Made by a program: the position numbers and the translations under genes. This document shows positions 1-63,060 of a stretch of 64,000 nt of DNA, piece after piece. The notes beneath the pieces are model-generated. The model searched no databases. It was not told the DNA's origin and worked only from the letters and a program-made list of their open reading frames with translations. Source of the DNA: Acidobacteriota bacterium (lineage in GTDB: Bacteria > Acidobacteriota > Blastocatellia > RBC074); the NCBI GenBank assembly GCA_016196035.1, contig JACPYM010000054.1:1-64000 (forward strand), read 5' to 3'. The number at the start of each line of letters is the position of its first letter. The stretch's first letter is position 1.

Positions 1-3000
1 GCGTTTGGGCGATGCGGTTGGCGCCCTCGCCATTGCTCAGGAGCAAGCGCCAGATGCCGTTGTTCGCGCGCAACACGAAGTCGCTCTTGCCGTCCCCATT
101 GTAATCGGCCATTTGCGCCTGAGCCGCAAAAGCCCCGAAGCCGATCACCAGCGTGTAGCTCCTTGAACCCGTACACGCGCCCTGCGTCGCACTGATCGTG
201 AAGCTGTAGCTCCCCGCCGCCGCCGGATAGCCGAACAGCAAAGCTGCGCTGCTGAAAAAGCTCACCCCCGGCGGCAGGCTGCCCGCTGTCAGCGCGTAGC
301 TGTAACTCCCCGCAGGTGTGGCGGTGACCGCATTGTTGTAAAGCCGCCCGACACTGCCGTTGGGCAGATCGGGCAACGTGATCGTCGGGCAAGTGCCGCT
401 GCCAATCGTAATCGAGTAAGACTTGTTGCCCGTGCAACTGCCAAACCCGGTGGCCGCCACCGTAAAGTTCGCGGTGCCATTCGTGGTTGGCGTCCCGCTC
501 AGCACACCCGTCGCCGCATTCAGCGACAAGCCGGCCGGCAACGCGCCGCTCGTCACGGCATAGGTGTAACTGCCGCCCGCCGGACTGGCGGAGAAAGTTT
601 GGCTGTAAGCCGTGCCGATTGCGCCATTCGGCAAACTGGCGGGCGCCAGCGTGACCGTCGGACAGTTGATGGTCAACGCATAGGTTTGCGTCGAAAGGCA
701 ACCGTTGGGGGTTTGCACTTTGACAATGAACGTCGCAGTGCCCGTCACCGTCGGCAGGCCGCTGATGACACCCGTCGTCGAACTCAAGAGCAACCCGCTC
801 GGCAGATTCCCTTGCGCCAGCGAGAAGGTGTAGTTGCCGGGCGGTGTAACAGTCAGTGTTTGCGTGTAAGGGATGCCCGCGTTCCCCGCAGGTAAGGGCG
901 AGCTTGTCGTGAAGGTCACGCCTGTACAGCCGATGGTCACAGTGTAACTGCGGCTGCCCGCACAAGTGCCGGCGGCGGCTCTGATCGTGAAGGTGAAAGT
1001 ACCTGTGGTGGTCGGCGTGCCCGTGATCGCGCCGGTCGCCGCATTGAGCGTCAAACCGCCCGGCAGCGCGCCGCTGCTCACCGTGTAGCCGTAGCTGCCC
1101 GCCGGCGCAGCCGCAACCGTCTGACTGTATGCCGCCCCGACAGTTCCGTTCGGCAACGTGGCCGGATCAAGCGTGATCGGCGTGCAATCAACTATCAATA
1201 CGTAATCCCGGAATCCGCTACAGGCGCCAAAGCCCGTCGCCGTGACGCGAAAATTGAACGTCCCGCCCTGCGCCGGCGCGCCGCTCAGCAAACCGCCAGC
1301 GCTGAGCGTCAACCCCGCTGGCAACGCCCCCGTGGTCACCGCAAAGGAATAACTCGCGCCCGTCGGTGCCCCGCTCAGCGCTTGATTGTAAGCCGTATTG
1401 ACGGTGGCGTTCGGCAACGTCGCCGGATTCACCGTGATGGTCGGACAGGTGATTGCCAGTGTGTATTCGCGCGCCCCTGTGCAACTGCCAAAGCCTGTTG
1501 CCGTAGCGGTGAACGTGAAACTGCCGCTGGTCGTCGGCGTGCCGGTCAACGCGCCACTTGCTGCCAGCGACAAGCCCGGCGGCAAGCTGCCTCCGGTGAC
1601 GGCGAATGTGTAACTGCCTCCGGCTGGTGAGGCCGTCAGCGTTTGGTTATAAGCCACGCTGGCCGTGCCGCCCGGCAACGCCGACAGCGTAATGGCTGGG
1701 CAGGTCGTCGTCAGTCTGTATTGACGGCTGCCCGTGCAATTGCCCCAGCCCGTCGCCGTCACCGTAAAGGTGAAGACACCGACCAAGTTCGTTGTCCCGC
1801 TGAGCACGCCGTTGGTGTTGAGCGTTAAACCGGTCGGCAACGCGCCCGCTGTCACGGCGTAACTGTACGTCGTACCGGCCGGCAACGCCGAGATCGTTTG
1901 GCTATACGCCACGCCTGCCTGTCCGCTCAGGTCGGTCGGTTGCGCAGCGCTGGTGGGATTGAGCGTGATCGCCGGGCAGGCAATGACCAGCGTGTAATTC
2001 GCCGTGCCCATACAGTTGTTGGCGTCGGTGGCCTTGACCGTCAGCGGGAACGTTCCGGCTTGGGTCGGCGTACCGCTCAAGCTGCCGTTTGCCGCGAGCG
2101 TCAAGCCTGGCGGCAATGTGCTCACGGTTGAAAACGTGGTCGCGCCGATGCCGCCCGCTTGCGTAAACGTCTGACTGAACGCCACGCTCGCCGTACCCGT
2201 CGTCACGGCGGGCGGCGTCACGGTGATCGTCGGGCAATTGATCGTCAACGTGTAATTCGACGAACCCGCGCAACCGCCGCTGCTGTTGGCCGCGACGGTG
2301 ATGACGAACACGCCGGTTTGCGTCGGCGTCCCCGACAGCAGGCCGCCGGAAGACAGCGTCAGGCCAGCCGGCAACGGCGAACTCGTGGTGAAAGTCGAAC
2401 CCGGCGTGCCGCCCGTTTGCGTGAAGGTCTGGCTGAACGCCGCGCCCGCCGTGCCCGTGTTGATGCCGGGCAGGTTCACGGTGATCGTCGGGCAACCGAA
2501 AGACAGCGTGTAATTGGTCATCCCCGTACAACCGTTCGAGTCGGTCACTTTGATCGTGAGCGGAAATGAACCGGTTTGCGTGGTCGTGCCGGCAAGCAAG
2601 CCACTCGCATTGAGCGTGATGCCAGTCGGCAAGGCGCTCGCGGTTGAGAACGTCACCGCGCCGATGCCGCCCGCTTGCGTGAATTGCTGGCTATACCCGA
2701 CGCCGGGATTGCCACTCGCAATCGAAACCGGCCCAACCGTAAGCGCCTGGCAATTGACGTTGAGGCGAATGGTGAAATCCGTCATCGAGCCGCAATTGTC
2801 CGTCGCGCGGATGGTGATGTCGTGCGCACCCATCGGCCCGGCGGCGGTGATGGAAACGACGCCTGACGTATTGACCGCCGGCGCGTTGTTCAAGGCAGGC
2901 GAGACGCTTTGCACAGAGTACGACACGCTGCCGTTGTCGGTCGCGGCAGTGGGCGTGATCGTCAGCGCATTGCCTGCCGTCACCGCTTGCGGCGTGATGT

Positions 3001-6000
3001 AGTTCAACACCGGCGCACTGTTCGCCGTCACTGTGACGTTGAGCGTCGCCGTTGTCATCGCGTTGCTGTTGTCGGTGACGAGCAGCGTGAAGCTCGCATT
3101 GGTCGCCGTACAAGTCGCCACAATGTCCGCCGTGATGGTGCCGCTCGTGTTGACGAGGTTCGAGACCGTCACGCCATTGACGGTCGCCGTGCCGTTGCCA
3201 TTGACCTTGACGGGCAGCGAACCCGCGCTTTGATCAATGTCGCTGACCGTCGCGATGGTCGAGTTCGAGACCGGACTGCCCTGCTGCCGTGCGTTAGCGA
3301 CCGCATTGATCGTGGGCGCGGTGTTGACCGTCAGCGTGAAGCTCTGCTGCACCGTCGCATTGCAATTGTCCGTCACCGTCACCGTGATCGTGTACGTCCC
3401 CGATGGCCCGGCGTTCATAACCGTCAACGCCCCGGTTGCCGTGTTGCCGGTGAATGTGCCGGTGAACGTATTTGGTGAAGCCGTCGCCGTCACGCTTTGA
3501 ATTGAGCCGTTGTCCAGTGGCGCGGCATTCGGCGTCACTGTCACGGTGCCGCCCACCGCGACGCCCGTGTTGGCATACGTCCCGACGCTCGGCGGAGTAT
3601 TGGACGTGACCGTGACGATGAAATTGGCCGTCGCCATTGCGCCGTTGCCGTCCGTCGCCGTCAGCACGACCGTGTTGTTGCCCGGCGTGGCATTGCACAA
3701 AGCTGTAACTGTCGCCGTGACGGTGCCGCCGCTGTTGTTGATGCTCGTCACCGTGATGCCTGTCGGCACAGTCGTTGGGATGACGGTGACGCTGCCCGCC
3801 GCCGTGAGGTCATCGCTGACGATGGCAATCGTCGCCGTGCTGCCCGCCGTGCCTTGTTGGCGCGTGACGGTTGCGCCTGCGGAGATCGTCGGCGGCAGGT
3901 TTGCGCCTGTGCCTTGAAGCGAGAAGTTATACGGGCCTTCGTCGCAATCGTCGTTTTCAATCGTGACGGTCGCCGTGCGTGTGCCGACGCCGCTCGGATC
4001 GAAGATGATGGTGAAAGTCGTCGTGCCATTGGTCACGGCGACCGGCGAGGTCGGTTGCACGCTGACCGTGAAGTCGCTGGCGTGCGTGCCGCTGATGGCG
4101 ACTTTTGGTGTACCGCTGAGCAGCAGTTGCCGCGTGCCGGTGTTGGCAATCGTGAAGGTGTGCGTGACGCTGCCGCTCGCCACGTTCGCGCTGCCGAAAT
4201 CGGTATCGTCCGTCGCGCTGGGCGTGCTGTCGCCGTCCGCGATGGAAGTGCTGTTGCCACGCACGTCAATTTCCGGCGCCAGGAAGACCGCGCAGGTCGT
4301 GCCCGTCGTCACGCCGCCCGGCGTCACCCAATTCGAAGTCGCGCCGCTGAGCGCGAAGTTGTTGAGCGTGCCGGTGAATCCGTTGGGGCCGGAGTCGGTG
4401 AGCGTATTGATGCCGGTGTTGGTGGTGCCCGCGAGACCCTGGTTGAATTTGTAGTACGCGACCAGACCGGTCTCATTGGTCATCAGTTCGCAGTTCATGT
4501 GCGCCTGAATTTCGTCCTGACAGAGAGCCCGGTTCCAGAGGCGGAATTCGTCCATCTGGCCCTGGAAAAAGTAGGGATCAAACCCGAGGCCGAGCAGCAG
4601 CGCGGAGGTGCTGGCAGAGAGAGCGCCGGTCGCCGCGTGCGAGTCTACCAGGACGCCATCCACATACAGCTTGGTGCTGCTGCCATCGTAGGTGCCAGCG
4701 AGATGATGCCAGGCGCCAGCGGTCAAAGGGGTCGAACTTTGAACGGCTCCATAAACAGAAATCTGCCATCTGGGATACAGATTGCCGCCCACAATCAACT
4801 GGCAGCTTTCGTTGTCGGCCACGCGGGCAAAAGCGCCGCTGCCCGTTTGCGGTCGCACCCATGCCTCCATCGTGATGGCATTACTGGGGTGCAAGGCCGC
4901 CGCATACGGAACCGACACATAATCATTCGCGCCATCGAAATCCAATGCCGCGCCCAGCGCCGACCCATTGCTCGTGACCGGCGCGCCGCAGCCCGCCGTT
5001 GGTGTATTCAACGCCGTGCAAGTCGCCGGGTCGGGCGCATTCGCCCCGCTCGTCGGATCAACCGAAACCTTGTTCGTCACGCTGCCCGTCGCCGTCGGAC
5101 ACACGACGACGCTGAGCGTGCTGGTGCCAGTGGTCGCCGCAATCGTCCCGCTGAAATTGCAAGTGATCGTGCCGACGTTCGGATTGCCCGAAGACGGCGT
5201 ACACGTCCAGCCCGAACCCGACGCGCTGATGAGCTTCATCCCAGCGGGGATGGCGTCTTTGACTTGCGCAGTTGTGGCCGCCGCGCCGCCGCTGTTGCTG
5301 ACGGTGATCGTGTAGGTCGAGTTTTGCCCGACCACCAACGCGGGCGCAGGCTGACTCTTGCTGACCGACAGCACAGGCACCGCCGCCACGACGATGTTGA
5401 ACGTGGTGTTGGCCGAAAGCATCGGCGAGCCATCATCCGTCGCCGTAACCTTGACCATCAACGTGCCCGCATCGGCGTTTGTCGGCGTGCCGGAAAAGGT
5501 GCGCGTGCCCGGCGTAAAGGTCAGCCACGCGGGCAGCGCGCTGCCGTCTGATTTCGTCGCGGTGTAAGTGAACGTCGTCGGCACATCCACATCGGCAAAC
5601 GTATTTGCCGCAAAGGTGAAATTGAACGCGCTGTTGGCCGTGGCGTTCTGATTCGGAATCGTGTTGGCGACGGTGGGCGCTTCGTTGACGTTGGTGATGT
5701 AAACCGTGAGCGGCGTTTCGTAAGTCAGGCCGCCAGCGTCGGTGACTTTGACGCGGATGCTGCACGTGGGCTTGGTTTCATAATCATAAACCGCGTTCGA
5801 TTTCAGTGTATTGCCCACGATAGTGAAACTGTTGTTGTCGGTGCTGCCTGTGCCGGTCACGAGCGCGAAAGTGAACGTATCGCCCGGATCAGGATCAGTC
5901 GCCGTGAGCGTGCCGACGGTCGTATTCACAGCGGAATTCTCAGCGATGCTGAGCGTCGTGCCCACCGGTATGGCCGACATGCGCAACCGATCCATCACGA

Positions 6001-9000
6001 CGCCGCTGCCGCCAAAGGTGTAGGTGAACAGGTTTGCCATATTGCTGACGACGTTCCCGGTCTGCGTGCCGCGTCCGGTGACTTGCGTCGCGCCGCTGCC
6101 GATGCTGGCGGCGTTGAGATCGGCGGCCAACAAGCCGCCTGGCGCAAAGTTGTCATATTGCGCAGCGGTCAGAATCCAGACGGTGATGGACGAATTGGCA
6201 TACGCAAAGCGGTACATATACGTCGTGTTCGGATCAAGCGCGCTGGGCGTCAGGTTGACGAAGCTCGCTCCGCCTTGCAACGCCACGACCGGCACCGTGC
6301 CGCCATTGCTGTCGTTGCTCGGCGCGAGCGCGATGGTGTACGCCTGATTATTGGAGCCGCCAAGGCCGAACATTTGCACTGGCCCCGCAACCGGACGGCG
6401 AAACAGGAAATCACCCGTAATCGGCCCTGCCGCCAGCAGGTTCGCGCTGAAGTTGCGGCTGCCGGAACCGCCATTCCAAGCGCCGCCCACCGTGTCCAGA
6501 TTGCTGAAGCTCAGACTTGTCGGCGTATAGCTGCCACTGCTCCAAGCCGTCGAGAAGCCCGTGCCGCCATTACCGGAGAGCGTCCCGGCACTGTTGCCGT
6601 AGTTGAAATCTTCGGTGATGAGCAATGGCCCATTGATCGCCGTCGGGGCGGAATTCATGCCCGTGCCTTGAATGGCGAAGTCATAAGGATTGCGTGGGCA
6701 ATCGTCATTGGCGATATTGATGGTCGCCGTGCGCACACTTACGGCGCTGGGATCGAAGGTGACGGTGAACGTCGTCGAGCCGTTGATCGCGATGGTCGCC
6801 GGGAAGGTGGGCAAACCGCCCAGTGTGAACTCGGCGGCATTGGTCCCGCTCACGGTGATGCCGGTGACGGTCAGTGACGCCGTGCCGTTGTTTTCAATGG
6901 TGAAGGTGCGCGTGATCGCGCCGTTCGTATAACTGACGCTGCCAAAATCAGTGTGATCCGCCGTGTCCGGCATCGTATCGCCATCCGTGATGGAAACGCT
7001 GTTGCCTTTGACGTTCGCCAGCGGTGCGCCCGGCGGTGTGCCGCCCGGCGTGAAAATGAAGTTGGGGCCGAAGCAGGATTTCTCCGCCAGTCCCGTGGCC
7101 GTCGCGTCCAGGCTGGGATACGTCAGCGAAGCCACGCCATTGTTGATCTTGCCGCGCACAAACGTGACGATTGGATCAGTCGCCACGGTTGTCACAGCGT
7201 GTAGAAAGGCATCATTGCCGCCGCCATTGAAGACCACGGCGCCGATGCGATAGGTGCCCGCACCCAGCACGATGGGCGTGATCGCCACATAACGATAGCC
7301 GTTGGTCAACGTGGCGGTTGTGCTTGATGCCACGGTGCCAGAAGCCAGCAGCGTGCCGCACAAATTGAAGATGCCGACATTGTGTGCCGTCGCCAGTCCG
7401 TCATTGCCTACGTCGTAAAAGCCCAGGCTACTGACCGTGATGGCTTGGTTGGTGGTGAATTCATAACCAACGGTGAAGCCTTGATTGTTAAAGACGAACG
7501 GCGAACCACCCGTGAGTGCAGTCACGGCGGCCTGTACCGATGTGGTGAACATCAGGTCGCTGCCATTGCGGCTGCCGACGCTGTTCGTGCCGGTGACGCG
7601 GAAGTGATAGGTCGTCCCCTGCATCAAGCCGGTCAGATTCGCGCTGACGGTTTGACCGGTCGTGCCGTTGTTCGGTGACAAGGTAATACTGGCCGTACTG
7701 CCGTAACTGGTGTTCAAGCCGTATTCAAATTGCGCCGTCGTCACCGCGCCGCCGGGATTGACGGTGGCATTGAGCGTCGCGGTCGTGGACATCACGCTCG
7801 TCGCGGCGCTGGTGGTCACGCCCGGCGGTTCGTTGATGGGCGTGCCCACGGTGCTTGCGCCGAAGGTGAGGTTGTCGTAGCTGGGCCCGCCGCTGAATTT
7901 CGCAAGGCGCACGGATTTGGCCGTACCGGTGAAGGTCACGCTGCCAGTGATGTTGCCATTCAGATTGTAGCTTTGACTCGCCAATTGCGTGCCAGTGGCG
8001 TTCTCACCATCAAAAATGGCGATATTGAAGCCGATGGCGACGTTGATGGCATCAACCGCAAAACCAGTCGTAAAGCCGTTGGGTACGCTGATGACTGGAT
8101 TACTGTTGCCGTCGAGCACGCCACCACTGGCGGCGTTGGTGGTATTGAAGGAAATGCCGGAGTTCGTGCCCGTGTTCCCTGCCGCATCTGTGCCGCCGTT
8201 GTAATAGTTGCCAAGCGCGCCGCTGGCCGTGTGGAAGCCGATAGTCGTGGTGGGAATCGTCACGGCGATGGTTTTGGTTCCGGCACTGGCAAACGTGCCA
8301 TCTTCGTCCGTCAACGAAACTGTTATCGCTTTGTCGCCGCCCGTGGTGTAAAGGTGCGTCTTGCTGGTGCTGGCCGGATTGCCGCTGAACGGCTCAGTCA
8401 CACCGTCGCCCCAGTTGATGCTGTAGCTCGTCACCGTGTCCGTGCCCGGATCGGTGATCGCGCCCAGATTCAACGTGTAGCTCGCATTCACTACAACACT
8501 GCTGTTGCCAGTCAGCGCAATTGTCGGCGCGACGTTGTTGACGTCGAACGTAAAGGTTGTCGTGCTGCTCAAAGCAGGCGTGCCGTTGTCGGTGGCGGTG
8601 ATGGTCACCGTCGTTGGGCCAGCCGGGCCATCGGGTGGCGTGTAACTCCAACTCCAGGTGCCTGCGCCATTGTTCGGCGTGACGGTGCCGACGCTGGCCG
8701 TGAGGGTGGCGGTGGCGTTGCCATCGGGGTCGCTAAAGGTGCCGGTGTTGCTCGCCAGGCTGCCTTCGTTGGCGGTGACGGTGGCGTTGTCGCGCGCGAC
8801 GGTTGGCGCGGTGTTTAAGGCGACGCCGCCGCGCACGGGGAAATCAAACGGGTTCTCGACCGGATCGCCGACGACGGCCAATTGCAAGGTCGCGGTGCGG
8901 ATGCCGGTCGTGGCACCGCGATTCCAGGTCACGGTAAACGTGGTCGTGCCGCCGGGATCAAGGCAGGAAGGCAAACCGCTGGTGTTGGCCGTGAAATCGC

Positions 9001-12000
9001 CGGGATTCGTGCCAGTGAAGGTGACCGCCCCGAACGCCAGCGGGGCGCTACCGGCGTTGCGCAGCGTGAAGGTGCGGGTCGCGGTCACGGTGCCGAAGTC
9101 CACGTTGGTCGCTTGGCCATCGGTGACTTCGGGGTCGGTGATCAGCGTGCCGTTGTGCAGTTCGACATCGCCATAAGCGATCTGCGCAAGCGCCTGTGCG
9201 CCCAAGCGGACGCCGTCACCGCTGTTCCAAAGCTCCTGCACCTCGGTGGAAGTCAGCGGGCGGTTCCAGAACGCGAGGTCGTCATGTTCGCCGCCGAACA
9301 GTTGCGTCACCATCCCCGAGTCAAACGTGCCGGCGGGGAAGCTGCCCGAAGTGGAACTGATGGAACCGCCGCCGCCGGTGCCCGTCCAGTAAGTCGCCGT
9401 GAGCGTTGCTTGGTTCACGGTGATCACGCGCAGGTCCCAGATGGCCGTGAAGTAGTCTATGCCGCCGCTGAGGATGAGCCTTCCCCCGGCCGTCGCGCCA
9501 CTGCTCACCAGTACGGCGGGAACGTTGAGGTTGGCGGTGTCGGAAATCGTCCACGAAGTGTTCGGCGCCCCGCTGTTCGAGGTTGAATTGCCGAGCAGCA
9601 TGCCACCGCCGGAGCCGAGAATCTTGCGCGTCCAGACGGCGACGCTGAAAGAGTTGGTCCCAAAGGTCAGCTCCGCAGGCTTGCAGAGACTGCATCCCCC
9701 TGTGGTGTAGCTGCCGAATTTGCCGCCGGGGTTGCCTGGCGTGCCGCCGACGCCGTGGTTGCCGTGGCCCGAGGTGTCGTTGGGACTGGTTTCAAAGGGA
9801 TAGTAGCCGATCAAGCCCGCCTTCAGCCCCGCCGAGGCATCCGGCGTGTTGACCACGGTGAGACTCACCGTGGCTTCGGCGCTGTCCACCGTGCCGTCGT
9901 TGACCTTGAATTTGAAGCTGTCCGCCCCGGTGTAATTCGCGTTTGGCGTGTAAGTCACATTCGGCGCGGTGCCAGTGAGCACGCCGTTCGCGGGATTTTG
10001 CGTCACCGTGTAGGTGAGCACCGTGCCCGCGTCGGCATCCGATCCTGTGAGCGTGATGGAGACAACCGTGTTGATGTTCGTTCTCTTGCTCTGTGCATTG
10101 GCGACGGGCGGGGTGTTGGCGTTCGCCACCGCAATCTGCACCGCTGTACTGGTGTAATTGGTGGTAAACGTCAGCCCGGAAACAGGCGGAATCGTCACAC
10201 TGGCGAACGTGCCCGTGCGGCTGGCGAAAGTCATCACCGTATAGGTCTGGCCTGCCGTGGGCGTGAACGCGCCCCAATTCACCACGAGCTTCGCATTGGT
10301 CAGCGTGGCGTTGTTGCTCACCGCCAGCCAGTCATAGCCCGTGCCTTGCACCGTGCCGTTGATTTCGCAGTTATAGGTACCGCTGCCGAGATCGAGATCG
10401 CCCGTCACCGTAAGCTTGCCGGGTGAGAGGCCAGGCTCGATGCTGGCGGTGGCGCTGTTGGTCAGCGTGCCGCTCTGCACGATAGTTCCCTTGCCCTTGA
10501 TGGTCGCGTTGTTGGTCAGCGTGCCGCCCGCATTTATGTTGAGGAAGTTATCTGAGTTGCCCAGCGTGATCGTGCCGCCATTGGTGAACATGCCGCCACT
10601 CAGCACGGTGAAATTGCAGGTCGCGGGCATCGAAAGCTGCCCTGTCGAGTAGTTGGTAAACAGCCCCGCTGTTTTGGCGATGCGGCTGACCAGCGAGCCG
10701 TAGTTGTTGACGGTCGAGTTGACGCCGAAAGTGAGTTGCGAACCATTGCCGCCGTCGGTGATCACGCCCGTCGCGTTGTTGTTGACCGTGCTTTGCCAGG
10801 TGCTGGGTGTGCCGGTGTTCATCGTACCGTCGTTGTTGATGGTACTGCCTGCGTTCATGGCTTCCGCGCAGGACGGGCAAGAGTACGAACCGCCCGACTT
10901 GATATTCAGCATGCCGCCCGAATTATTGGTCATGAAATAGGCGGTGTAGCTGCCATAAATATCCATCGTCCCGGCGTTGGTGATACGTCCTTGGCTGAGC
11001 GAACCGCTGGCATTGACCGTCAACATCGCCCCGGCATTGATGGTGATGAAGGTATTGAGGCTGGGACTCAGGGCTTTCGCACTATTGACGGTCAAGGAAG
11101 TGCCGGACGGAAACGCAATCGTCACGTCGTTCATCACGCAATTGGCCGCGATGATGACGGCGTCCCCGCTGGCTAACAGCGCCGTGGTGGGCACGACGCC
11201 GGTGCTCCAATTCGACGCGACAGCCCAATCCGTGTTGGTCGTGCCGTTGAAGGTGTAGACAGCCGGAGCCTTGCCCGTCAGCGCAAAGTCGTAATTGCTC
11301 TCATCGCAATCGTCATTGACGATGTTGATCGTCGCCGTGCGCGTGCCGCCTGCTGTGGGCGTGAAGGTGACATTGAAAGTCGTGCTGCCGCTGGCTGCCA
11401 CAGTCGCGGGCAGCGTGATGCCGGAACACACGAATTCACCGGCATTCGTCCCACTGAATGAAATGGCCGAAACCGTCAGTGGCCCACTGCCCGTGTTCTC
11501 AATCGTGAAGCTCTTGCTGACGCCCACGCCGACGGGCGTCGTGCCGAAATCGGTGTTGTTCGTGGCGCTGGTCGCCGTCGTGCCATCAGGGATGTTGTTG
11601 CCGTTGCCTTTGAGGTTGATGTCGGGAATGTTCGTGACGTAAGCCGAAGCCGTCTGCGTAATGCCTGCGCCGCTCGTCCAGTTGCTGCTCGTGCCCGTGA
11701 GCGCGAAGTTCGTCAGCGTGCCGGTTTCCAGCGTGTTGTCCGCCGTGTCGGTCAACGAAATCACGCCTGCATTCGTGCCATCCGCCGTGCCCTGATTGAA
11801 TTTGTAATAGGCGATCAGGCAATTCGGCATGCTGGCGATTTCAGTGTTCATGAACGTCTGAATCTCGCTTTGCGTGCGCGCACTCGCCCAGATGCGAAAC
11901 TCGTCAATCGTGCCGTGGAAGGGCCTGCCACTTCCTTCCCAATAACCGATCAGGAACGGGCTGGTGTTGTTGGCCGGCCCGGTCACCGTCCCCGAAGTTT

Positions 12001-15000
12001 GCGAGACCCCGTTTTTATAAAGCGTGCCCGTCGTGCCGTCGAAAGTCAGCGCCACGTGTGTCCAGGTGTTTTCGCTGATGTTGCCGAGCGGGCTGGTAAG
12101 CTGCGTGCCGCCGATGCGCGCGCAGAGCCGCCAGGCTGCCGCCGAGTTGTCTTGCAACCACATCACCAGGTTGTTGCTGTTCTTGCTGAAGACCGTGGGG
12201 AACTGCTCGCCCGTGGGCTGGACATAAATCCAAGTCTCGACCGTGAAGGCTGAAATCAACGGCATGTTGCCGCTGTGCGGAATGGTGACGTAATCATTGC
12301 TGCCGTCGAAATTCAACGCCTCGCCCGGCGCATTGGCAACCGCGCTGGTTACTGGCGCGCCGCAACCCGCGCTCGGCGTATTCAATGCCGTACACGTCGT
12401 TGGGTCAGGCGCGCCCGTGCCGCCCGCCGGTTCGACTGAAACTTTGTTGGTCTTCACGCCGGCTGAGGTCGGACACGCGATCACGCTGATTGTGCTCGTA
12501 CCGCCGCCCGTCGCAATCGAACCGGCGAAAGTGCAAGTGATCGTACCCACGGGCGAATTGCCGGAGCTTGGATTGCACGTCCAGCCCGTGCCCGTCGCAC
12601 TGACGAGTTTCATGCCGACAGGCAGTGCATCTTTGACCGTAGCCGCAGTCGCCGCCGCATTGCCGTTGTTGGTGACCGTGATCGTATAGGTCGCGTTTTG
12701 GTTATAGGTCAGCGCCGGATTGCTCTTGCTCACCGATAGGTTGGGCGAATTGGGAATCGAACTGCTGACCGGCGCGGCGCATCCGGCGGGCGTGTTGGCC
12801 GCCGTGCAAGTGGTCGGCGTGGGCGGATTCGCGCCGCCCGACTGATCTACCGAAGCGTAGTTGATGACCGTGTTGCCGCCATACGGCGCGGTCGGTTTGA
12901 CGACGACGCTGATCGTGCTGGTGCCGCCGCCCGTGGCGATGGAGCCGCCGCTGAAGTTGCAAGTGATCGTGCCGACGGGCGTGGCGGTCGCGCCGCTCGG
13001 CGTACACGTCCAATTCGTGCCCGTCGCGCTGACCAGATCGAGGCCGATGGGCAAGCCGTCTTTGACCGTTGCGGTCGTCGCCGCCGCGCTGCCGTTGTTG
13101 GTCACAGTCAGCGTGTAGGTTGAATTCGCGCCTGCCACCAATGAAGGCGAGGGCGCGCTTTTCGCCAGCGTCAAACTGGGCGAGGCGGCGCAAGCCGAAA
13201 CCGTCGCCATCGCCGAAGTCGCCACGAGGTTGGTGTTGATCGTATCGGTGTAACTGGCCGCGCTGCCCGCGCACGTCACCTGTGTCTGGTAGCAGAACTG
13301 CACCGGCGTGCTGTTGGTAAAGGTCAGCGTCGCCTTGGGCGCAACGTTGTCATCCCAGGCGACCGTGGCGACGGGCGTCTCATCAATTTGCAGCCGCAGG
13401 TTGCGAATGGACGAAGAGACCGACGAGATGTCAATCAGGCCCGAACCGCCGACGGCTTCGACCGGGCCGAAGACCGTCGCGCCCGTGTCAACATTGATCA
13501 GCGAAACCTGCAACGAAGTGAACTCGACGCCCGAAGTCAGGTTGATGTCGGACAAAATCACCTTGTCCCAGGTCGCGGCGACTTGCGAACCCGAACCGCA
13601 GTAGAAGCTGTCAATGTTGACCGTCGCGGTCGTTGCGGCGCGCGTCGAAGGCGAGATGCCTGAGATCGGATTCCACGACCGCAACACCGCCGCGTCGCCA
13701 TACGAGTAAACCGACACGCCATCCGTGCCCAGGCCGTATGGCCGATTGGCGTCCACGGTGTAGCCGCTGGTGAACCCAGCGCCGGTGCAGGGCAATTGCG
13801 TTGACCAATCAAAGCAACTCAGCTTGTTGAAGTCAGCGTAATTTGGAAAGAAGACACGGCTGCCCAGATAGACATCCGCATTGGCATTGATGCCTGGATA
13901 CATCCCGTGGACGCCGCCCAGATTGACGACGGTCGGGTTGCTGCTGTTGAGGTCGTAACAAGTGGCGTTGGTGTTGCGGCCCGCGATACAGATGCCCGTG
14001 ACCGCGCCACCCGCGCTCAAGCGCGGGAAAAGATTGCTGCCTTCGCTCGCCGGCGTTGCCGGTGTGAGGACGGTGGGCAGCGCGGGCCAGCCCGTGCAAG
14101 TGGTATTCGTCGCCACGTCAAAGCAGGTCAGCTTGCGCTCGTAGTTGGCGATGTAAAGTTTCGAGCCGACCGCAAAGATGTCGTCGCCAAAGTTGTTCCA
14201 TTGCCCTGCCGCGCCACGCGCGGGCAGGCCCAGGTTCACCGGCGTAAAACCGGCGCAGTTGTTGAGGCTGTTGCCGGGATCGAAACAGCGCAATTCGCCG
14301 CTCTGATTGAGCGTAAACAATTTGCCGCTGGCAACCGTCAGCACCGCACTCTTGCCCGTCGTCGCGGCGCTCTGCCCGCAGGTGCTATCGGTCGTGGCGT
14401 CCCAGCAATAAATGCGATCCAGCCCAGGCGCGCCGCAACATTGCTGATCGTAGGAGTCGGGATTCATATACACGCGATTGCCGATAGCAATGGTGTAATT
14501 GTTCGTGCCGGTAAGAATGCCGGAAGATTTGGGATAGCCGGTGCAAGGCGCAGAGGTGTTCAAGTCATAGCACCAAACCTGCGCCGGATTGACGTGATGG
14601 TTGACCCCGATCACTTTGCCGTTGGCCGTGACTGCCGGATTGAATCCATCGCCCGTCCCGCTCAGGTTGATATTGCCACCGAGCGGACGCGGGAAAGCCT
14701 GCGCCACGCCCTTGGCATTCTTCGCCAACAGCGCGTTGGTGAAATTGAGCGCGGTCGCATTGGGCTGGCTCGAAGTCCAGTTGCTGCCCGGCGTCTGCAC
14801 ACTGCCCGCCACCAGCGTCTGCCCGCTGTTCCACGTATCGTTGAGCGTCACGTTCGCCAACGGCACATCACCGCTGGTCAGGTCGTAATTGATCTTCCAG
14901 TTGATTGTCGCCGTGCCGGTGCCCGACGGCGGCGTCGCGCCTGCCACGCCACTCTTCGTCACGGTTTCGGTATTGCCCCCGAAAACCGCTGCCCAGACCG

Positions 15001-15157
15001 ACGCGGGCGTGCTCTTTAGTTTGGTGAGCCAGTCGCCATTGGCATTGGCGGCGCTCGCACTGCCGCGCCAACCGGCAAAACTCAAAACACACACGACGGC
15101 CAGCGCGAGGGCGAACCGCAAGGAACGAACGACGAGGTGAGATTGCTGCGAGAACAT
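1..15157 (-). CDS. Giant secreted multidomain (choice-of-anchor D / LamG / He_PIG) protein, C-terminus beyond the left edge
   Basis: A single open frame runs from an ATG at 15157 to the left edge, so 5,052 residues are visible. Frame and sense were spot-checked near 15100, 12000, 7000, 1450 and 100. Residues 1-37 are a signal peptide (hydrophobic FALALAVVCVLSFAG). Then come a DUF11-like segment and, at about 150-490, a propeller-like region with repeated aromatic-Cys-aromatic-Asp units. DUF11 repeats follow at about 655-905 and again near 5370-5050 on the DNA. LamG-like modules lie near 12340-11800, 9830-9190 and 4950-4450. Four choice-of-anchor-D (HYDIN-like) modules lie near 11640-11280, 9190-8830, 7000-6670 and 4280-3900. 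There are also a beta-helix-like Asn/Gly-rich stretch, a PKD domain near 8550-8290 and an fn3-like domain near 7830-7560. Ten He_PIG repeats of about 85 residues (2750-150) precede an FG-GAP/VCBS unit (DYNGDGKSDFVL). This is a cell-surface or extracellular protein; adhesion or polymer binding is inferred, not shown. Confidence 0.9.
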   Translation of the reverse strand, partial: MFSQQSHLVVRSLRFALALAVVCVLSFAGWRGSASAANANGDWLTKLKSTPASVWAAVFGGNTETVTKSGVAGATPPSGTGTATINWKINYDLTSGDVPLANVTLNDTWNSGQTLVAGSVQTPGSNWTSSQPNATALNFTNALLAKNAKGVAQAFPRPLGGNINLSGTGDGFNPAVTANGKVIGVNHHVNPAQVWCYDLNTSAPCTGYPKSSGILTGTNNYTIAIGNRVYMNPDSYDQQCCGAPGLDRIYCWDATTDSTCGQSAATTGKSAVLTVASGKLFTLNQSGELRCFDPGNSLNNCAGFTPVNLGLPARGAAGQWNNFGDDIFAVGSKLYIANYERKLTCFDVATNTTCTGWPALPTVLTPATPASEGSNLFPRLSAGGAVTGICIAGRNTNATCYDLNSSNPTVVNLGGVHGMYPGINANADVYLGSRVFFPNYADFNKLSCFDWSTQLPCTGAGFTSGYTVDANRPYGLGTDGVSVYSYGDAAVLRSWNPISGISPSTRAATTATVNIDSFYCGSGSQVAATWDKVILSDINLTSGVEFTSLQVSLINVDTGATVFGPVEAVGGSGLIDISSVSSSIRNLRLQIDETPVATVAWDDNVAPKATLTFTNSTPVQFCYQTQVTCAGSAASYTDTINTNLVATSAMATVSACAASPSLTLAKSAPSPSLVAGANSTYTLTVTNNGSAAATTATVKDGLPIGLDLVSATGTNWTCTPSGATATPVGTITCNFSGGSIATGGGTSTISVVVKPTAPYGGNTVINYASVDQSGGANPPTPTTCTAANTPAGCAAPVSSSIPNSPNLSVSKSNPALTYNQNATYTITVTNNGNAAATAATVKDALPVGMKLVSATGTGWTCNPSSGNSPVGTITCTFAGSIATGGGTSTISVIACPTSAGVKTNKVSVEPAGGTGAPDPTTCTALNTPSAGCGAPVTSAVANAPGEALNFDGSNDYVTIPHSGNMPLISAFTVETWIYVQPTGEQFPTVFSKNSNNLVMWLQDNSAAAWRLCARIGGTQLTSPLGNISENTWTHVALTFDGTTGTLYKNGVSQTSGTVTGPANNTSPFLIGYWEGSGRPFHGTIDEFRIWASARTQSEIQTFMNTEIASMPNCLIAYYKFNQGTADGTNAGVISLTDTADNTLETGTLTNFALTGTSSNWTSGAGITQTASAYVTNIPDINLKGNGNNIPDGTTATSATNNTDFGTTPVGVGVSKSFTIENTGSGPLTVSAISFSGTNAGEFVCSGITLPATVAASGSTTFNVTFTPTAGGTRTATINIVNDDCDESNYDFALTGKAPAVYTFNGTTNTDWAVASNWSTGVVPTTALLASGDAVIIAANCVMNDVTIAFPSGTSLTVNSAKALSPSLNTFITINAGAMLTVNASGSLSQGRITNAGTMDIYGSYTAYFMTNNSGGMLNIKSGGSYSCPSCAEAMNAGSTINNDGTMNTGTPSTWQSTVNNNATGVITDGGNGSQLTFGVNSTVNNYGSLVSRIAKTAGLFTNYSTGQLSMPATCNFTVLSGGMFTNGGTITLGNSDNFLNINAGGTLTNNATIKGKGTIVQSGTLTNSATASIEPGLSPGKLTVTGDLDLGSGTYNCEINGTVQGTGYDWLAVSNNATLTNAKLVVNWGAFTPTAGQTYTVMTFASRTGTFASVTIPPVSGLTFTTNYTSTAVQIAVANANTPPVANAQSKRTNINTVVSITLTGSDADAGTVLTYTVTQNPANGVLTGTAPNVTYTPNANYTGADSFKFKVNDGTVDSAEATVSLTVVNTPDASAGLKAGLIGYYPFETSPNDTSGHGNHGVGGTPGNPGGKFGSYTTGGCSLCKPAELTFGTNSFSVAVWTRKILGSGGGMLLGNSTSNSGAPNTSWTISDTANLNVPAVLVSSGATAGGRLILSGGIDYFTAIWDLRVITVNQATLTATYWTGTGGGGSISSTSGSFPAGTFDSGMVTQLFGGEHDDLAFWNRPLTSTEVQELWNSGDGVRLGAQALAQIAYGDVELHNGTLITDPEVTDGQATNVDFGTVTATRTFTLRNAGSAPLAFGAVTFTGTNPGDFTANTSGLPSCLDPGGTTTFTVTWNRGATTGIRTATLQLAVVGDPVENPFDFPVRGGVALNTAPTVARDNATVTANEGSLASNTGTFSDPDGNATATLTASVGTVTPNNGAGTWSWSYTPPDGPAGPTTVTITATDNGTPALSSTTTFTFDVNNVAPTIALTGNSSVVVNASYTLNLGAITDPGTDTVTSYSINWGDGVTEPFSGNPASTSKTHLYTTGGDKAITVSLTDEDGTFASAGTKTIAVTIPTTTIGFHTASGALGNYYNGGTDAAGNTGTNSGISFNTTNAASGGVLDGNSNPVISVPNGFTTGFAVDAINVAIGFNIAIFDGENATGTQLASQSYNLNGNITGSVTFTGTAKSVRLAKFSGGPSYDNLTFGASTVGTPINEPPGVTTSAATSVMSTTATLNATVNPGGAVTTAQFEYGLNTSYGSTASITLSPNNGTTGQTVSANLTGLMQGTTYHFRVTGTNSVGSRNGSDLMFTTSVQAAVTALTGGSPFVFNNQGFTVGYEFTTNQAITVSSLGFYDVGNDGLATAHNVGIFNLCGTLLASGTVASSTTATLTNGYRYVAITPIVLGAGTYRIGAVVFNGGGNDAFLHAVTTVATDPIVTFVRGKINNGVASLTYPSLDATATGLAEKSCFGPNFIFTPGGTPPGAPLANVKGNSVSITDGDTMPDTADHTDFGSVSYTNGAITRTFTIENNGTASLTVTGITVSGTNAAEFTLGGLPTFPATIAINGSTTFTVTFDPSAVSVRTATINIANDDCPRNPYDFAIQGTGMNSAPTAINGPLLITEDFNYGNSAGTLSGNGGTGFSTAWSSGSYTPTSLSFSNLDTVGGAWNGGSGSRNFSANLLAAGPITGDFLFRRPVAGPVQMFGLGGSNNQAYTIALAPSNDSNGGTVPVVALQGGASFVNLTPSALDPNTTYMYRFAYANSSITVWILTAAQYDNFAPGGLLAADLNAASIGSGATQVTGRGTQTGNVVSNMANLFTYTFGGSGVVMDRLRMSAIPVGTTLSIAENSAVNTTVGTLTATDPDPGDTFTFALVTGTGSTDNNSFTIVGNTLKSNAVYDYETKPTCSIRVKVTDAGGLTYETPLTVYITNVNEAPTVANTIPNQNATANSAFNFTFAANTFADVDVPTTFTYTATKSDGSALPAWLTFTPGTRTFSGTPTNADAGTLMVKVTATDDGSPMLSANTTFNIVVAAVPVLSVSKSQPAPALVVGQNSTYTITVSNSGGAAATTAQVKDAIPAGMKLISASGSGWTCTPSSGNPNVGTITCNFSGTIAATTGTSTLSVVVCPTATGSVTNKVSVDPTSGANAPDPATCTALNTPTAGCGAPVTSNGSALGAALDFDGANDYVSVPYAAALHPSNAITMEAWVRPQTGSGAFARVADNESCQLIVGGNLYPRWQISVYGAVQSSTPLTAGAWHHLAGTYDGSSTKLYVDGVLVDSHAATGALSASTSALLLGLGFDPYFFQGQMDEFRLWNRALCQDEIQAHMNCELMTNETGLVAYYKFNQGLAGTTNTGINTLTDSGPNGFTGTLNNFALSGATSNWVTPGGVTTGTTCAVFLAPEIDVRGNSTSIADGDSTPSATDDTDFGSANVASGSVTHTFTIANTGTRQLLLSGTPKVAISGTHASDFTVSVQPTSPVAVTNGTTTFTIIFDPSGVGTRTATVTIENDDCDEGPYNFSLQGTGANLPPTISAGATVTRQQGTAGSTATIAIVSDDLTAAGSVTVIPTTVPTGITVTSINNSGGTVTATVTALCNATPGNNTVVLTATDGNGAMATANFIVTVTSNTPPSVGTYANTGVAVGGTVTVTPNAAPLDNGSIQSVTATASPNTFTGTFTGNTATGALTVMNAGPSGTYTITVTVTDNCNATVQQSFTLTVNTAPTINAVANARQQGSPVSNSTIATVSDIDQSAGSLPVKVNGNGTATVNGVTVSNLVNTSGTITADIVATCTATNASFTLLVTDNSNAMTTATLNVTVTANSAPVLNYITPQAVTAGNALTITPTAATDNGSVSYSVQSVSPALNNAPAVNTSGVVSITAAGPMGAHDITIRATDNCGSMTDFTIRLNVNCQALTVGPVSIASGNPGVGYSQQFTQAGGIGAVTFSTASALPTGITLNASGLLAGTTTQTGSFPLTIKVTDSNGCTGMTNYTLSFGCPTITVNLPGINTGTAGAAFSQTFTQTGGTPGSTFTTSSPLPAGLTLSSGGLLSGTPTQTGVFVITVAANSSGGCAGSSNYTLTINCPTITVTPPAVTTGTASVAFSQTFTQAGGIGATTFSTVSTLPPGLTLAANGSLSGTPTQAGTFPLTVKATDANNCMGTANYTLVIACPAITLNPTSAAQPTDLSGQAGVAYSQTISALPAGTTYSYAVTAGALPTGLTLNTNGVLSGTTNLVGVFTFTVTATGWGNCTGSRQYRLTTTCPAITLSALPGGTASVAYNQTLTASPAGGSYTFAVTGGSLPPGLSLAASGALTGTPTTSGSFTFTATATGFGSCTGAREYTLAITCPTITVNPATLPNATVNTAYNQALSGAPTGASYSFAVTTGALPAGLTLSAGGLLSGAPAQGGTFNFRVTATGFGACSGFRDYVLIVDCTPITLDPATLPNGTVGAAYSQTVAAAPAGSYGYTVSSGALPGGLTLNAATGAITGTPTTTGTFTFTIRAAAGTCAGSRSYTVTIGCTGVTFTTSSPLPAGNAGIPYTQTLTVTPPGNYTFSLAQGNLPSGLLLSSTTGVISGLPTVTGTATFIVKVQTPNGCLSTQTYALTINCPTVTLAPASLPNGAIGTAYSQTFSASPAGGSYTYAVTSGALPAGLSLNAATGVLSGTPTTNGTANFTVAATGFGSCTGNKSYSITIGSGTCPTITLPDLPNGSVGRLYNNAVTATPAGSYSYALTAGSLPPGVSFFSSAALLFGYPAAAGSYSFTISATQGACTGSRSYTLVIGFGAFAAQAQMADYNGDGKSDFVLRANNGIWRLLLSNGEGANRIAQT

Positions 15158-15293
15158 TGGGGGAAACTCCTGTTTCTTTAACGGCATTGAAGGGTGTCAA
15201 ACGATTCGGTTAAAACATTGCGCCGCGCACGAGCGAACGCGCGCTGGCGCTGAACTCTTGCGTCAGTCCTCACCCCTGTGCCAGCATTGGGTT

Positions 15294-15707
15294 ATGGGTG
15301 AAGTCAAAGTGAACGTGAAGTTGAGCAACGGCATGGATCAGGGCATGTTTCGCCGGGGTCTCATCACCCGTGATCAAGTCCGCTCCATCAACGTGGAAGC
15401 CATTGTTGACACCGGCGCGGTGCGTTCGTGCATGCCGATAGACCTGATGGAGAAGCTGGGCCTGCAAGTCGTGCGTCACATGAATGCCCAGATGGCGAAT
15501 GACCAAACCCAGAGTGTGGCTGTCACCGAAGGCGTGGACATGGAAATCCTCGACCGCCTGGTCACAGAGGCCTTCCTGGTGCTGGGCAGCGAAGTGCTGA
15601 TCGGCCAGACCGCACTCGAAGCCACCGACTTGCTGGTGGATTGCACCCGGCAACAAGTCATCCCCAATCCCGCCCATCCCAACTCCGCCGTGATCCGCAT
15701 TCGTTGA
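15294..15707 (+). CDS. Retropepsin-like (clan AA) aspartic protease
   Basis: This is a 137-residue protein starting MGEVKVNVKL; the start was chosen because the paralogue at 62641 begins in the same way. The catalytic motif is VDTGAV, about 38 residues in, preceded by the usual beta-strand INVEAI. A second conserved block, LIGQTALEATDLLVD, lies near the C-terminus. Length and single DTG motif fit the family of small single-lobe aspartic proteases that act as dimers. No signal peptide is visible, so it is probably cytoplasmic. It is divergent from the giant secreted-protein gene. Its 3' end abuts, on the other strand, a truncated copy of that gene's signal-peptide region (15700-15812). No strong Shine-Dalgarno sequence is visible. 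The substrate is unknown. Confidence 0.75.
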   Translation: MGEVKVNVKLSNGMDQGMFRRGLITRDQVRSINVEAIVDTGAVRSCMPIDLMEKLGLQVVRHMNAQMANDQTQSVAVTEGVDMEILDRLVTEAFLVLGSEVLIGQTALEATDLLVDCTRQQVIPNPAHPNSAVIRIR

Positions 15708-15812
15708 ACTCACACCGGCGCAACTCAGTCCACACACGACGGCCAGCGCGAAGGCGAACCGCAAGGAACGAATCAGCAGGGCTTGGTTTTTCATGAACAT
15801 TTGGGGGAATAC
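15700..15812 (-). pseudogene. Orphan signal-peptide remnant, duplicate of the 5' end of the giant secreted-protein gene
   Basis: On the minus strand an ATG at 15800 opens a signal peptide (MFMKNQALLIRSLRFAFALA) that closely matches the start of the giant protein at 15157. The DNA match includes the shared block encoding RSLRFA and ALAVVC and the GGGGGA-like leader just upstream. After about 34 codons the similarity ends, near the stop codon of the aspartic protease gene. The frame then continues only as antisense of that protease. I read it as the 5' end of a former secreted-protein gene, or a partial duplication of its neighbour. Expression is unknown. Confidence 0.6.
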
Positions 15813-15907
15813 TCCAATTCTTACCACGTGATGTGGGCGGCGACCGCCGCCCACAGACAGGCCAGCCGGCGTCCCTGGCTGGCCCCTTGATCTCGCTGAA
15901 AACGGCG

Positions 15908-16258
15908 TTACATGCCTTCGAGCGCGTTGTCGCGGTTTTCTCGGATGTCGAATAGTTTGTTTAGGCGCGTAATCGCGAATACTTCGTAGATGTCAGGCCG
16001 GATCGAACAGAGCCGCAATTTGCCCTTCGCGGTTTTAACCTTCTTGTCGAGCGTGATGAGCTTGCCCAGCGCGGCGCTACTGAAGTATTCGACGTTGCTG
16101 AAATCCACGATGATTTTCCGGCGGCCATCCGTGTCAACCAGCGCGAACAGTTCGTTGCCGATGATTTGGATATTGCCTTCATCCAGGATTTTCTTATCCA
16201 CAAAACGCGCGACCGTGACGCCGCCGATTTCTTCCAGGTCTAGTCTTTTTATTGCCAT
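15908..16258 (-). CDS. STAS-domain anti-sigma factor antagonist
   Basis: This 116-residue protein starts MAIKRLDLEE, with GAGGAA just upstream of the ATG. It is a single STAS domain. The conserved loop before the phosphorylatable serine reads VDFSNVEYFSSAALGKL, matching the DxSxxxxxSSxxGxL pattern of SpoIIAA/RsbV-type antagonists, with the acceptor Ser at about residue 63. Such proteins are phosphorylated by a HATPase_c anti-sigma kinase and bind it in the dephosphorylated state, or they act in stressosome-like partner-switching. No kinase or phosphatase partner lies next to it. Family assignment is firm; the controlled pathway is unknown. Confidence 0.9.
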   Translation of the reverse strand: MAIKRLDLEEIGGVTVARFVDKKILDEGNIQIIGNELFALVDTDGRRKIIVDFSNVEYFSSAALGKLITLDKKVKTAKGKLRLCSIRPDIYEVFAITRLNKLFDIRENRDNALEGM

Positions 16259-62640: not shown

Positions 62641-63060
62641 ATGGGCGAAGTGGTCGTGCAGTTGCACCTCGAAAATGCGGTGGATCGGGAGTTAGCTAGA
62701 CGAGGTCTAATCAAAGAAGAGGAAGTACGTGAGTTGGAGACCCCCGCTATTGCTGATTCAGGAGCGCGAATGCTGCTGCTACCGCAAGAGCAAGTGGAAG
62801 CACTTGGTTTGCGAGAAATGCGCAAAGCTATTGTGAAGTATGCGGATGAGCGTAAAGAAGAACGTCTCGTGGCAGGCATCGTCACCGTGACGGTCAATAA
62901 CCGCCAGGCAAACGTGGAATGCGTGATACGCCCGCTAGCTTGCGAAGCTTTATTGGGACAAGTTCCCCTTGAGGTAATGGATTTGCTGGTGGATTGCGCT
63001 GAACAGAAACTCGTTCCGCGCCCGGAATCACCCATCTTGCCTTTGCTCAAATTTTACTAG
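62641..63060 (+). CDS. Retropepsin-like aspartic protease paralogue within the microcompartment locus
   Basis: The protein has 139 residues with AGGAGG 5-6 nt upstream, 13 nt after the BMC-H stop. It starts MGEVVVQLHLENAV and is homologous over its full length to the 15294 protein. Both share an N-terminal R-R-G-L-I turn, the catalytic motif (here ADSGARMLLLP, DSG in place of DTG), and the terminal block LLGQVPLEVMDLLVD followed by a short E/Q-rich tail. It is cytoplasmic by lack of a signal. It lies between shell and dehydrogenase genes and is followed 6 nt later by the dehydrogenase ATG, so it is almost certainly co-transcribed with the compartment genes. A role in processing shell or cargo is inference only. 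Confidence 0.85.
   Translation: MGEVVVQLHLENAVDRELARRGLIKEEEVRELETPAIADSGARMLLLPQEQVEALGLREMRKAIVKYADERKEERLVAGIVTVTVNNRQANVECVIRPLACEALLGQVPLEVMDLLVDCAEQKLVPRPESPILPLLKFY

Follow-up and report, generated by a model that had tools for sequence, protein, structure and literature searches.

A Verrucomicrobiota-type aspartic protease gene between two copies of a leader in an Acidobacteriota genome: a candidate insertion with long target duplication

In an Acidobacteriota genome (GenBank assembly GCA_016196035.1), a gene for a clan AA aspartic protease lies between two copies of the leader-encoding 5′ end of a giant secreted-protein gene. The locus falls within a stretch of 64,000 nucleotides (contig JACPYM010000054.1, positions 1 to 64,000), hereafter referred to as the window. 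The protease is placed phylogenetically with proteins of another phylum, the outer leader copy joins its gene close to the stop codon, and loci elsewhere show the same layout. The explanation that we favor, and consider somewhat probable, is that a nearly bare protease gene inserted into the 5′ end of the giant gene with a long target duplication.

Results

The leader repeat

The inner (T) and outer (T′) leader copies are homologous and constitute a direct repeat of host sequence on the order of 100 bp, 108 and 109 nt in length, respectively (Table 1). A sequence-only reading of this DNA had described two leader copies in the same orientation with the protease gene running the opposite way between them, and the alignment bears this out, with 87 identities over 113 columns and a score of 55.5, compared to a maximum of 21 in 500 shuffles. 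A core of 59 nt is 90% identical (E = 6e-16 against the whole 9.59-Mb genome). The repeat is a little longer than first delineated (15160-15069 and 15812-15718): it begins 21 nt ahead of the start codon, so that the GGAG box is included, and ends near codon 29. In a comparison of 666 pairs of 5′ ends, drawn from 35 called window genes, the outer leader, and a leader on a second contig (C57), the next best unrelated pair after T/T′ scored 19.5; the exceptions above that value were other leader-family pairs (34 and 36) and one pair of tail-collar genes (32).

Table 1. Features of the protease locus and of the paralogous protease gene in the window
Feature	Position	Strand	Description
Giant secreted-protein gene	2..15157	-	DUF11, LamG-like, Ig-like, and He_PIG domains; runs off the contig start
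Inner leader copy T	15071..15178	-	GGAG box, start codon, signal peptide; continuous with the giant gene
Spacer, T to protease start	15179..15293		Now the divergent intergenic region of the giant gene and protease
Putative inserted segment	15179..15713	+	115 nt upstream, protease ORF, and 6 nt; flanked by T and T′
Clan AA (retropepsin-like) aspartic protease gene	15294..15707	+	137 aa; DTGA active-site motif
Outer leader copy T′	15714..15822	-	GGAG box, start codon, signal peptide; no body; ends 6 nt from the protease stop codon
STAS-domain gene	15908..16258	-	Beyond the outer leader, on its far side
Paralogous clan AA protease gene	62641..63039	+	Flanked by genes for a BMC shell protein and an aldehyde dehydrogenase-family protein

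Matches to the leader were confined to three sites in the genome (C54:14939, C54:15705, and C57:48235), plus one chance-level match (E 0.73). Shorter DNA matches genome-wide (19-43 nt) are not leaders but parts of other reading frames, in some cases encoding apparent membrane helices. At C57, a third gene bears this leader, which continues into an N-terminal segment common to the giant protein. Because the C57 leader runs on into that shared segment, the leader–protease joint at the outer copy is a novel joint. The description of the outer copy as lacking a body also held: T′ gives way to the protease gene (Table 1). The frame of the outer leader does continue, antisense and without a stop, across the protease gene; the view that this is a genuine antisense gene was rejected, given the lack of any Pfam match, an open frame in just 2 of 12 relatives, and a probability of 0.34 that codon usage produces such openness.

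Searches of 10 other genomes of the family returned no match to the leader at E 0.001, hence no syntenic empty site was seen, and the adjacent STAS gene, used as a check on synteny, had no match in them at E 1e-15. An order-level search for the leader at E 0.01 covered the same 11 genomes. Across 161 other genomes of the class, two weak matches were retrieved, both in another family and resembling unrelated proteins or generic signal peptides. Scanning GTDB r220 genomes with two peptide patterns, followed by tblastn, yielded no relative at E 1e-3.

The giant-gene reading frame spans 5,052 codons. Within the 535-nt segment bounded by T and T′, the protease is the sole gene called, there is no transposase or integrase, and no sigma-70-like promoter was found in the spacer. 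The gap between the STAS gene and the outer leader was considered as a repeat element and rejected, as its hairpin (15835-15852) is not repeated in the window; the segment 15812-15907 has one weak match elsewhere in the genome.

Identity and origin of the protease

The gene encodes a predicted retropepsin-fold clan AA aspartic protease. Its IVDTGAV motif, with D39 of the ORF as the predicted active-site residue, fits D(T/S)G, and two Pfam models match above their curated cutoffs (PF13975, 29.3 bits versus 28.2; PF13650, 25.1 bits versus 24.3). The best NCBIfam model is TIGR03698 (clan_AA_DTGF; E 3e-12), with a score of 46.7 bits that is below the curated cutoff of 57.35, so the protease is not a member by that rule. 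The DTGA motif is the one in the name of the other model, TIGR02281, which is a weaker match. The predicted structure (mean pLDDT, 90.9) best matched the retroviral-protease-like domains of DDI1 in the PDB (E 4e-5), followed by the XMRV and HIV-1 proteases. No PADLOC defense-system match was obtained at E 0.01.

From its sequence relationships, the protease gene was apparently acquired from another bacterial phylum and is of Verrucomicrobiota type. The protein is 82% identical to a protease on a Verrucomicrobia contig and falls in a Verrucomicrobiota clade (support 100/99 and 99/88), apart from sequences of its own genome and family; in the 10 other genomes of the family, identity reaches 49% at best. 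Compared to the protease at locus L054, dN is 0.113 and dS is 0.90, and the absence of shared flanks there is therefore uninformative.

Eight other protease matches occur in the genome. None is near a leader or on C57, and the nearest is ~47 kb from a leader. The proposal that the protease moved as a unit with the leader is thus not supported, nor is the expectation that other protease genes would adjoin the same leader (0/8). Since the genome has three leader sites and none of the eight other proteases is near one, the leader looks like duplicated target rather than cargo. The sequence-only reading had also assigned the protease a second home in a microcompartment locus. A protease gene is indeed encoded there (Table 1), but it is a separate paralogue, 36% identical to the window protease and on another branch of the family tree.

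The idea of a mobile protease fared better, gaining support from the foreign tree placement, the many copies in varied contexts, and the recurring flanking direct repeats described below. One Ignavibacteria genome contains 24 protease matches and another genome 16, in varied contexts. A fixed partner gene was considered and rejected, as the ORFs that precede the proteases on the same strand are of many kinds; such an ORF of at least 50 aa lies within 200 nt of 99 of 126 proteases, some surely being spurious. Phage carriage was likewise rejected, with no record in the phage collection matching at E 0.001. Plasmid relatives were found on seven Synechocystis plasmids at 24-28% identity.

Direct repeats at other protease loci

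The layout of a protease between direct repeats recurs around other host genes in other phyla, and the repeated host pieces include the tail of an enolase and that of a TPR protein. (The gene upstream of the L098 protease, taken from its translation to be kinase-like, is instead assigned TPR repeats by Pfam.) Strong flanking direct repeats (score ≥40) were present at 8 of 125 tested protease ORFs, and in seven of these, the downstream copy begins 0-9 nt past the stop codon. The combination was found at none of 835 control ORFs on the same loci (Fisher p = 5e-7; 3e-5 when the three enolase loci count as one; 0.002 when the tandem protease pairs are dropped as well), with the caveat that the score and gap thresholds were chosen after the data were seen and that the control ORFs come from loci picked for the protease. 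For the latter reason, a comparison with lone blocks was an unfair control. An offset control was of no use as a count because long repeats span several offsets.

Two of the seven positives (L084 and the second copy at L078) belong to pairs of proteases in tandem, which a simpler event would explain. Among the three enolase loci, the T′ copies of L101 and L087 resemble their own T more (0.90 and 0.87) than one another (0.84), and the start of the repeat falls at different enolase positions; repeated events or gene conversion are therefore needed. Two pairs of close relatives delimit what is shared: the L072 and L090 proteases are 95% identical, with a match spanning from position -17 to just past the stop codon, and those of L178 and L184 are 90% identical, with a match from -5 to the stop codon and no flanking similarity in up to 1 kb. 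No strong flanking repeat was present at the remaining 117 of 125 protease ORFs, so most copies moved otherwise or lost the repeat.

Discussion

On the favored explanation, a Verrucomicrobiota-type clan AA protease gene would have entered the genome nearly bare, with ~115 nt of upstream sequence and 6 nt beyond the ORF, and would have inserted within the giant gene's 5′ end, duplicating ~108 bp of the target. A single event could suffice, for example, the joining of a foreign fragment between staggered nicks ~110 nt apart and subsequent fill-in. Since the ribosome-binding site, start codon, and signal peptide all lie in the duplicated piece, the giant gene still has a start from which it can be translated; its former promoter was probably left with the orphan outer leader. 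Recombination between T and T′ would excise a 643-bp circle carrying the protease.

Because the empty site was not found, some probability stays with two other histories. In one, which we regard as rather unlikely, a unit of leader, spacer, and protease underwent tandem duplication, the breakpoint falling immediately after the stop codon, and the second protease copy was subsequently deleted. Tandem protease pairs of this form do exist, with units that end 5 nt (L084; 104 nt, ORF, and 5 nt) or 45 nt (L078) past the stop. However, no second-protease remnant was detected: when five proteases were compared by tblastn with L087, L098, L101, L108, and window positions 14001-18000, the matches at E < 0.1 were the proteases themselves. 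The STAS-side flank of the outer leader also bears no similarity to the spacer, and the foreign origin of the protease is left unexplained, though the duplication could have come after acquisition.

The other history, in which the outer leader formerly belonged to a second giant gene whose body was deleted up to the protease, develops the lost-gene alternative of the sequence-only reading. We judge this improbable. It accords with the GGAG box, in-frame start, and signal peptide retained by the outer leader, with gaps in the coding part of the leader alignment that are all multiples of three, and with the third gene bearing the leader on C57. Against these points, a search of the genome at E 1e-5 with the 596 residues following the leader matched, outside the giant gene itself, just 34 residues in C57, and a joint 6 nt past the stop codon would have to be a coincidence, yet such joints (≤10 nt from the stop) recur at other loci.

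An assembly or binning artifact is very unlikely. The genome is a draft of 139 contigs, and this contig begins inside the giant gene. Nevertheless, T and T′ are not identical, and each flank bears the leader, which was found in none of the other family genomes (nor in the class genomes searched, save for the two weak, unrelated-looking matches), so neither junction looks joined to foreign DNA; the G+C content of the protease gene is also close to that of the window (0.589 versus 0.598). Generic signal-peptide coding sequence as the source of the leader similarity can be dismissed almost entirely: some short matches elsewhere do include apparent membrane-helix codons, but the T/T′ pair far outscores the next unrelated pair (55.5 versus 19.5) at the E value given above, and its likeness reaches upstream of the start codon.

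Insertion with long target duplication is reportedly a known behavior of restriction-modification genes, with accounts attributed to Nobusato et al. 2000 and Furuta et al. 2010. The protease site resembles that case, as far as the passages drawn on describe it, in that a gene without a known mobile element lies between direct repeats of host sequence; tandem amplification via the repeats is expected there, and tandem pairs are seen in the protease family. In the restriction-modification case, the target duplications can be long and variable, on the order of 100 bp (PMC3874152, PMC3031569); insertion of this type is also treated in PMC2749054 and in the Discussion of PMC2869330, and the passages cited give no mechanism for the long duplications. 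In contrast, the cargo here comprises a retropepsin-like protease and neither a nuclease nor a methyltransferase, the second repeat begins 0-9 nt past the stop codon, and no empty site was seen. The protease site is thus a variant rather than the described form, its cargo being an aspartic protease gene and not a restriction-modification gene.

Single genes of Arabidopsis have been transposed to new sites where they are flanked by direct repeats of genic host sequence; such mobile genes are often in or near tandem arrays, and circles arising from tandem repeats have been proposed (PMC2869330). The shared features are a single gene at a new site between direct repeats of genic host sequence and the link of mobile genes to tandem arrays; unlike the present case, the host is a eukaryote, and the protease described here is of cross-phylum origin. 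RimB and Rlo of Pseudomonas, described as bacterial retropepsin-like peptidases with a DTG motif, can be likened to the window protease in these respects, with the difference that Rlo proteins carry signal peptides (PMC12239564). The word "horizontal" is absent from the text of that paper. Among the papers listed by the literature searches, none dealt with the insertion of aspartic protease genes with long target duplication.

The recurrence of this layout in unrelated bacteria suggests that protease genes of this clan AA family move as nearly bare genes. A stronger proposition, which we consider distinctly unlikely, is that the family is a lineage of mobile elements that are bare genes, each consisting of one 137-codon gene and lacking a transposase or integrase. 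Such elements would spread from phylum to phylum, multiply within genomes, and insert into or beside host genes, duplicating ~50-190 bp of target; their mobile end would lie at the stop codon, and their own product may help them move.

The loci allow comparison across several sites and pose a well-defined question, namely, why the joint lies at the stop codon. Insertion of this kind would also be a route by which a host gene gains a new upstream region, with an orphan start left behind. The signature known from restriction-modification genes, seen here around a single-gene family unrelated to them and in several phyla, would point to a more general way in which bare genes become established in bacterial chromosomes.

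The giant gene and its repeated leader

The window, positions 1-64000 of contig C54 in a 9.59-Mb draft genome, carries the 5' portion of a giant gene for a secreted protein whose domains are of the DUF11, laminin-G-like, Ig-like, and He_PIG types. A reading from sequence alone had described two same-oriented copies of the leader, meaning the secreted-protein 5' end, around an oppositely read protease gene. This arrangement is real, with coordinates slightly wider than first noted. The inner (T) and outer (T') copies share 87 identities over 113 columns at a score of 55.5 (maximum of 500 shuffles, 21); their central 59 nt are 90% identical, and T' ceases to match 6 nt short of where the protease gene stops. 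Nearby, a perfect 20-nt inverted repeat with a 1-nt loop (16327-16367; single copy within the window) lies between a STAS gene and a same-strand small gene (16551-16745), and three phage-tail-collar-domain genes, two with similar 5' ends, follow in succession (16792-18433).

Features of the leader repeat and of the BMC locus in the window
Feature	Position	Strand	Description
Giant gene	start 15157; continues past contig start	-	5052 codons visible
T (inner leader)	15071-15178	-	21 nt upstream of giant start codon to ~codon 29
Protease gene	15294-15707	+ (opposite to leaders)	137 aa; between T and T'
T' (outer leader)	15714-15822	-	direct repeat of T
Aldehyde dehydrogenase-family gene	63067-64806		579 aa; beside BMC-locus protease

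The sequence-only reading had proposed aligning the leaders against the chance of generic signal-peptide codons. Among 666 pairs of 37 5' ends (those of 35 genes called in the window, T', and a leader on contig C57), T/T' scored 55.5, and once the leader family and two tail-collar genes were set aside the top score was 19.5, ruling out generic codons as the source of the likeness. A whole-genome search found the sole further leader at C57:48235, where it opens the gene for an FG-GAP protein of 1366 aa. After the signal peptide, this protein and the giant one have ~40 more residues in common (NGxWLxxLKxxPAxVWAAVF). Because the C57 gene shares this post-leader segment, we regard leader-to-body as the ancestral order and the T'-protease joint as the novel one. 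The segment (window 14948-15049; L030:4218-4430) connects two large secreted proteins whose bodies differ; a search of the other class genomes did not find it. Over the 18-codon core, leader copies 1 and 2 differ at four codons (one synonymous) and each differs from C57 at 10; on these small counts the first two copies are closest to each other.

The protease and its relatives

The window protease matches gag-asp_proteas and Asp_protease_2 above Pfam cut-offs; TIGR03698 is its top NCBIfam model, at a score under the model cut-off. The predicted structure (mean pLDDT 90.9, from an alignment of 36 sequences) best matched DDI1 retroviral-protease-like domains in the PDB, followed by XMRV and HIV-1 proteases. 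With dN 0.113 and dS 0.90 against L054, one of the compared protease loci, the gene is under purifying selection relative to that locus.

An alignment of four sequences, used to scan the GTDB r220 genomes, retrieved 69 loci, for which taxonomic names are those given in the records. The four closest are Verrucomicrobiota records (82%, 74%, 74%, and 61%), two titled Akkermansia muciniphila MAGs. Loci in records titled Acidobacteria or its subgroups reached at most 53% identity to the window protease, and the best match in 10 other family genomes reached 49%. A 55-row tree took in the window protease, 45 of these loci, six family rows, and three further own-genome copies, but not the own copies C99b, C75, and C7. 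In it the window protease groups with those four Verrucomicrobiota records (100/99 and 99/88), separate from own-genome and family rows, a placement that points to a foreign origin of the gene.

The genome itself holds nine protease matches with E <= 1, of which seven reach 3e-13 or better, both counts including the query. The six other strong copies occupy varied settings, such as a putative suf operon on contig C63, where the preceding gene encodes an ABC-transporter ATPase (Pfam). At 62283-64806, running on into L053, a clan AA protease is flanked by a EutM-like BMC shell-protein gene and an aldehyde dehydrogenase-family gene. The sequence-only reading had raised, as one of two possibilities, that protease and leader moved together, and that protease genes elsewhere in the genome might adjoin the same leader. 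This did not recur: no leader lies near any of the eight other matches (0 of 8), the closest being C54:62641, ~47 kb off, with none on C57.

Direct repeats flanking other protease genes

A first flank test covered 68 of the 69 loci at 1 kb per side, with a null of 191 pairs of 1-kb segments drawn at random from the window. Seven loci scored above 50; the 95% level of the null was 15, yet its maximum was 53. The L096 repeat is part of Uma2-family gene copies on either side of the protease (Thiomargarita MAG, L096:4560-7334; Pfam run on one), with a further copy at 10673-11317. That of L084 is a separate 66-nt repeat.

For the final set, 141 sources gave 126 distinct protease ORFs (two from the window, 11 from own and family genome stretches, 64 from the scan loci, and 49 from stretches of ten of the genomes searched). 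Of these 125 were testable, by comparison of 600 nt upstream with 300 nt downstream. Eight of 125 scored at least 40, and in seven the downstream copy begins 0-9 nt past the stop codon (L101, 4; L084, 5; L087, 0; L108, 9; L098, 3; window, 6; second copy of L078, 0); the eighth, the first L078 copy, has a gap of 98 nt. The repeated piece is an enolase 3' tail in L101, L087, and L108, all Verrucomicrobiota records (identified by Pfam for L087 and L108, by similarity for L101). In L098 (Gemmataceae), a TPR-repeat gene has its tail repeated instead. At L084 and L078, two proteases lie in tandem. Among 835 other ORFs from the same sources, seven scored at least 40 and none had a gap of 10 nt or less; an earlier control of 589 ORFs held two hits with such gaps, both at protease paralogues. 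Fisher p was 5e-7 on the full seven, 3e-5 when the enolase trio counts as one, and 0.002 with tandem pairs dropped too, for thresholds chosen after data inspection and control ORFs from loci picked for the protease.

Extent of the shared DNA

Two non-syntenic copy pairs delimit the shared DNA. L072 and L090, from two cyanobacteria, share 95% identity over a stretch that begins at -17 and ends just beyond the stop codon; the L090 stop comes earlier, and the match extends to the L072 stop position. L178 and L184, from two genomes reached via Verrucomicrobia loci, share 90% identity between -5 and the stop codon, and up to 1 kb on each side (in L184, 650 nt upstream) shows no flank similarity. 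When the window is compared with L054, absent shared flanks are uninformative because dS is 0.90. In Chlorogloeopsis (L090:5864-5998), the protease is adjoined by part of a small gene (MRAYKLNAT...), namely its upstream region and first codons; Brasilonema (L072) has a fuller 94-aa homologue (MKAYKLNATIDESG...) further upstream.

The tandem proteases at L084:5478-6414 are 88% identical in a patchy fashion: the first ~120 nt are diverged, the next ~180 nt almost identical, and the 104-nt upstream regions nearly identical. This patchiness suggests that gene conversion occurs in the protease family. Ignavibacteria CoA_1_bin.73 has 24 clan AA protease matches and DBS2-1.bin101 has 16, several in tandem and a few partial or with an internal stop codon.

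Origin of the window layout

Several results count against a simple history of insertion. No strong flanking repeat was present at 117 of 125 protease ORFs, and no empty site (a single leader without protease) was found among the genomes searched. Within the enolase trio, T' is 0.90 (L101) and 0.87 (L087) identical to its own T, and the two T' copies are 0.84 identical to each other; for L108, the identity of T' is 0.93 with its own T and nearly as high, 0.92, with that of L087. The starting points of the repeats lie ~183-186 (L108), ~154 (L087), and ~144 nt (L101) before the enolase stop. A single old duplication does not fit the trio unless gene conversion acted. L108 also holds a third, longer enolase-tail fragment (2584-2958), ~1.35 kb past the second.

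Insertion with a long target duplication would tie the observations together and is probably how the window layout arose. According to passages of PMC3874152 and PMC3031569, which credit Nobusato et al. 2000 and Furuta et al. 2010, such insertion is open to restriction-modification systems, with long, variable target duplications that one of the two puts on the order of 100 bp. PMC2869330 refers to the Helicobacter case and describes a comparable pattern in Arabidopsis, which it explains by circles from tandem repeats. For the window, tandem duplication followed by loss is unlikely, and loss of a giant gene from behind the outer leader, raised by the sequence-only reading, is quite improbable.

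Under insertion with target duplication, a nearly bare protease gene would insert and duplicate ~100 bp of target. The giant gene would retain its ribosome-binding site, start, and signal peptide, and would lose its former upstream region to the orphan copy. Neither the spacer nor the DNA upstream of the outer leader yielded a sigma-70-like promoter. The mobility that the sequence-only reading suggested for the protease is supported, without the leader as its passenger: the protease appears to be the mobile part, and the leader looks like target rather than cargo.
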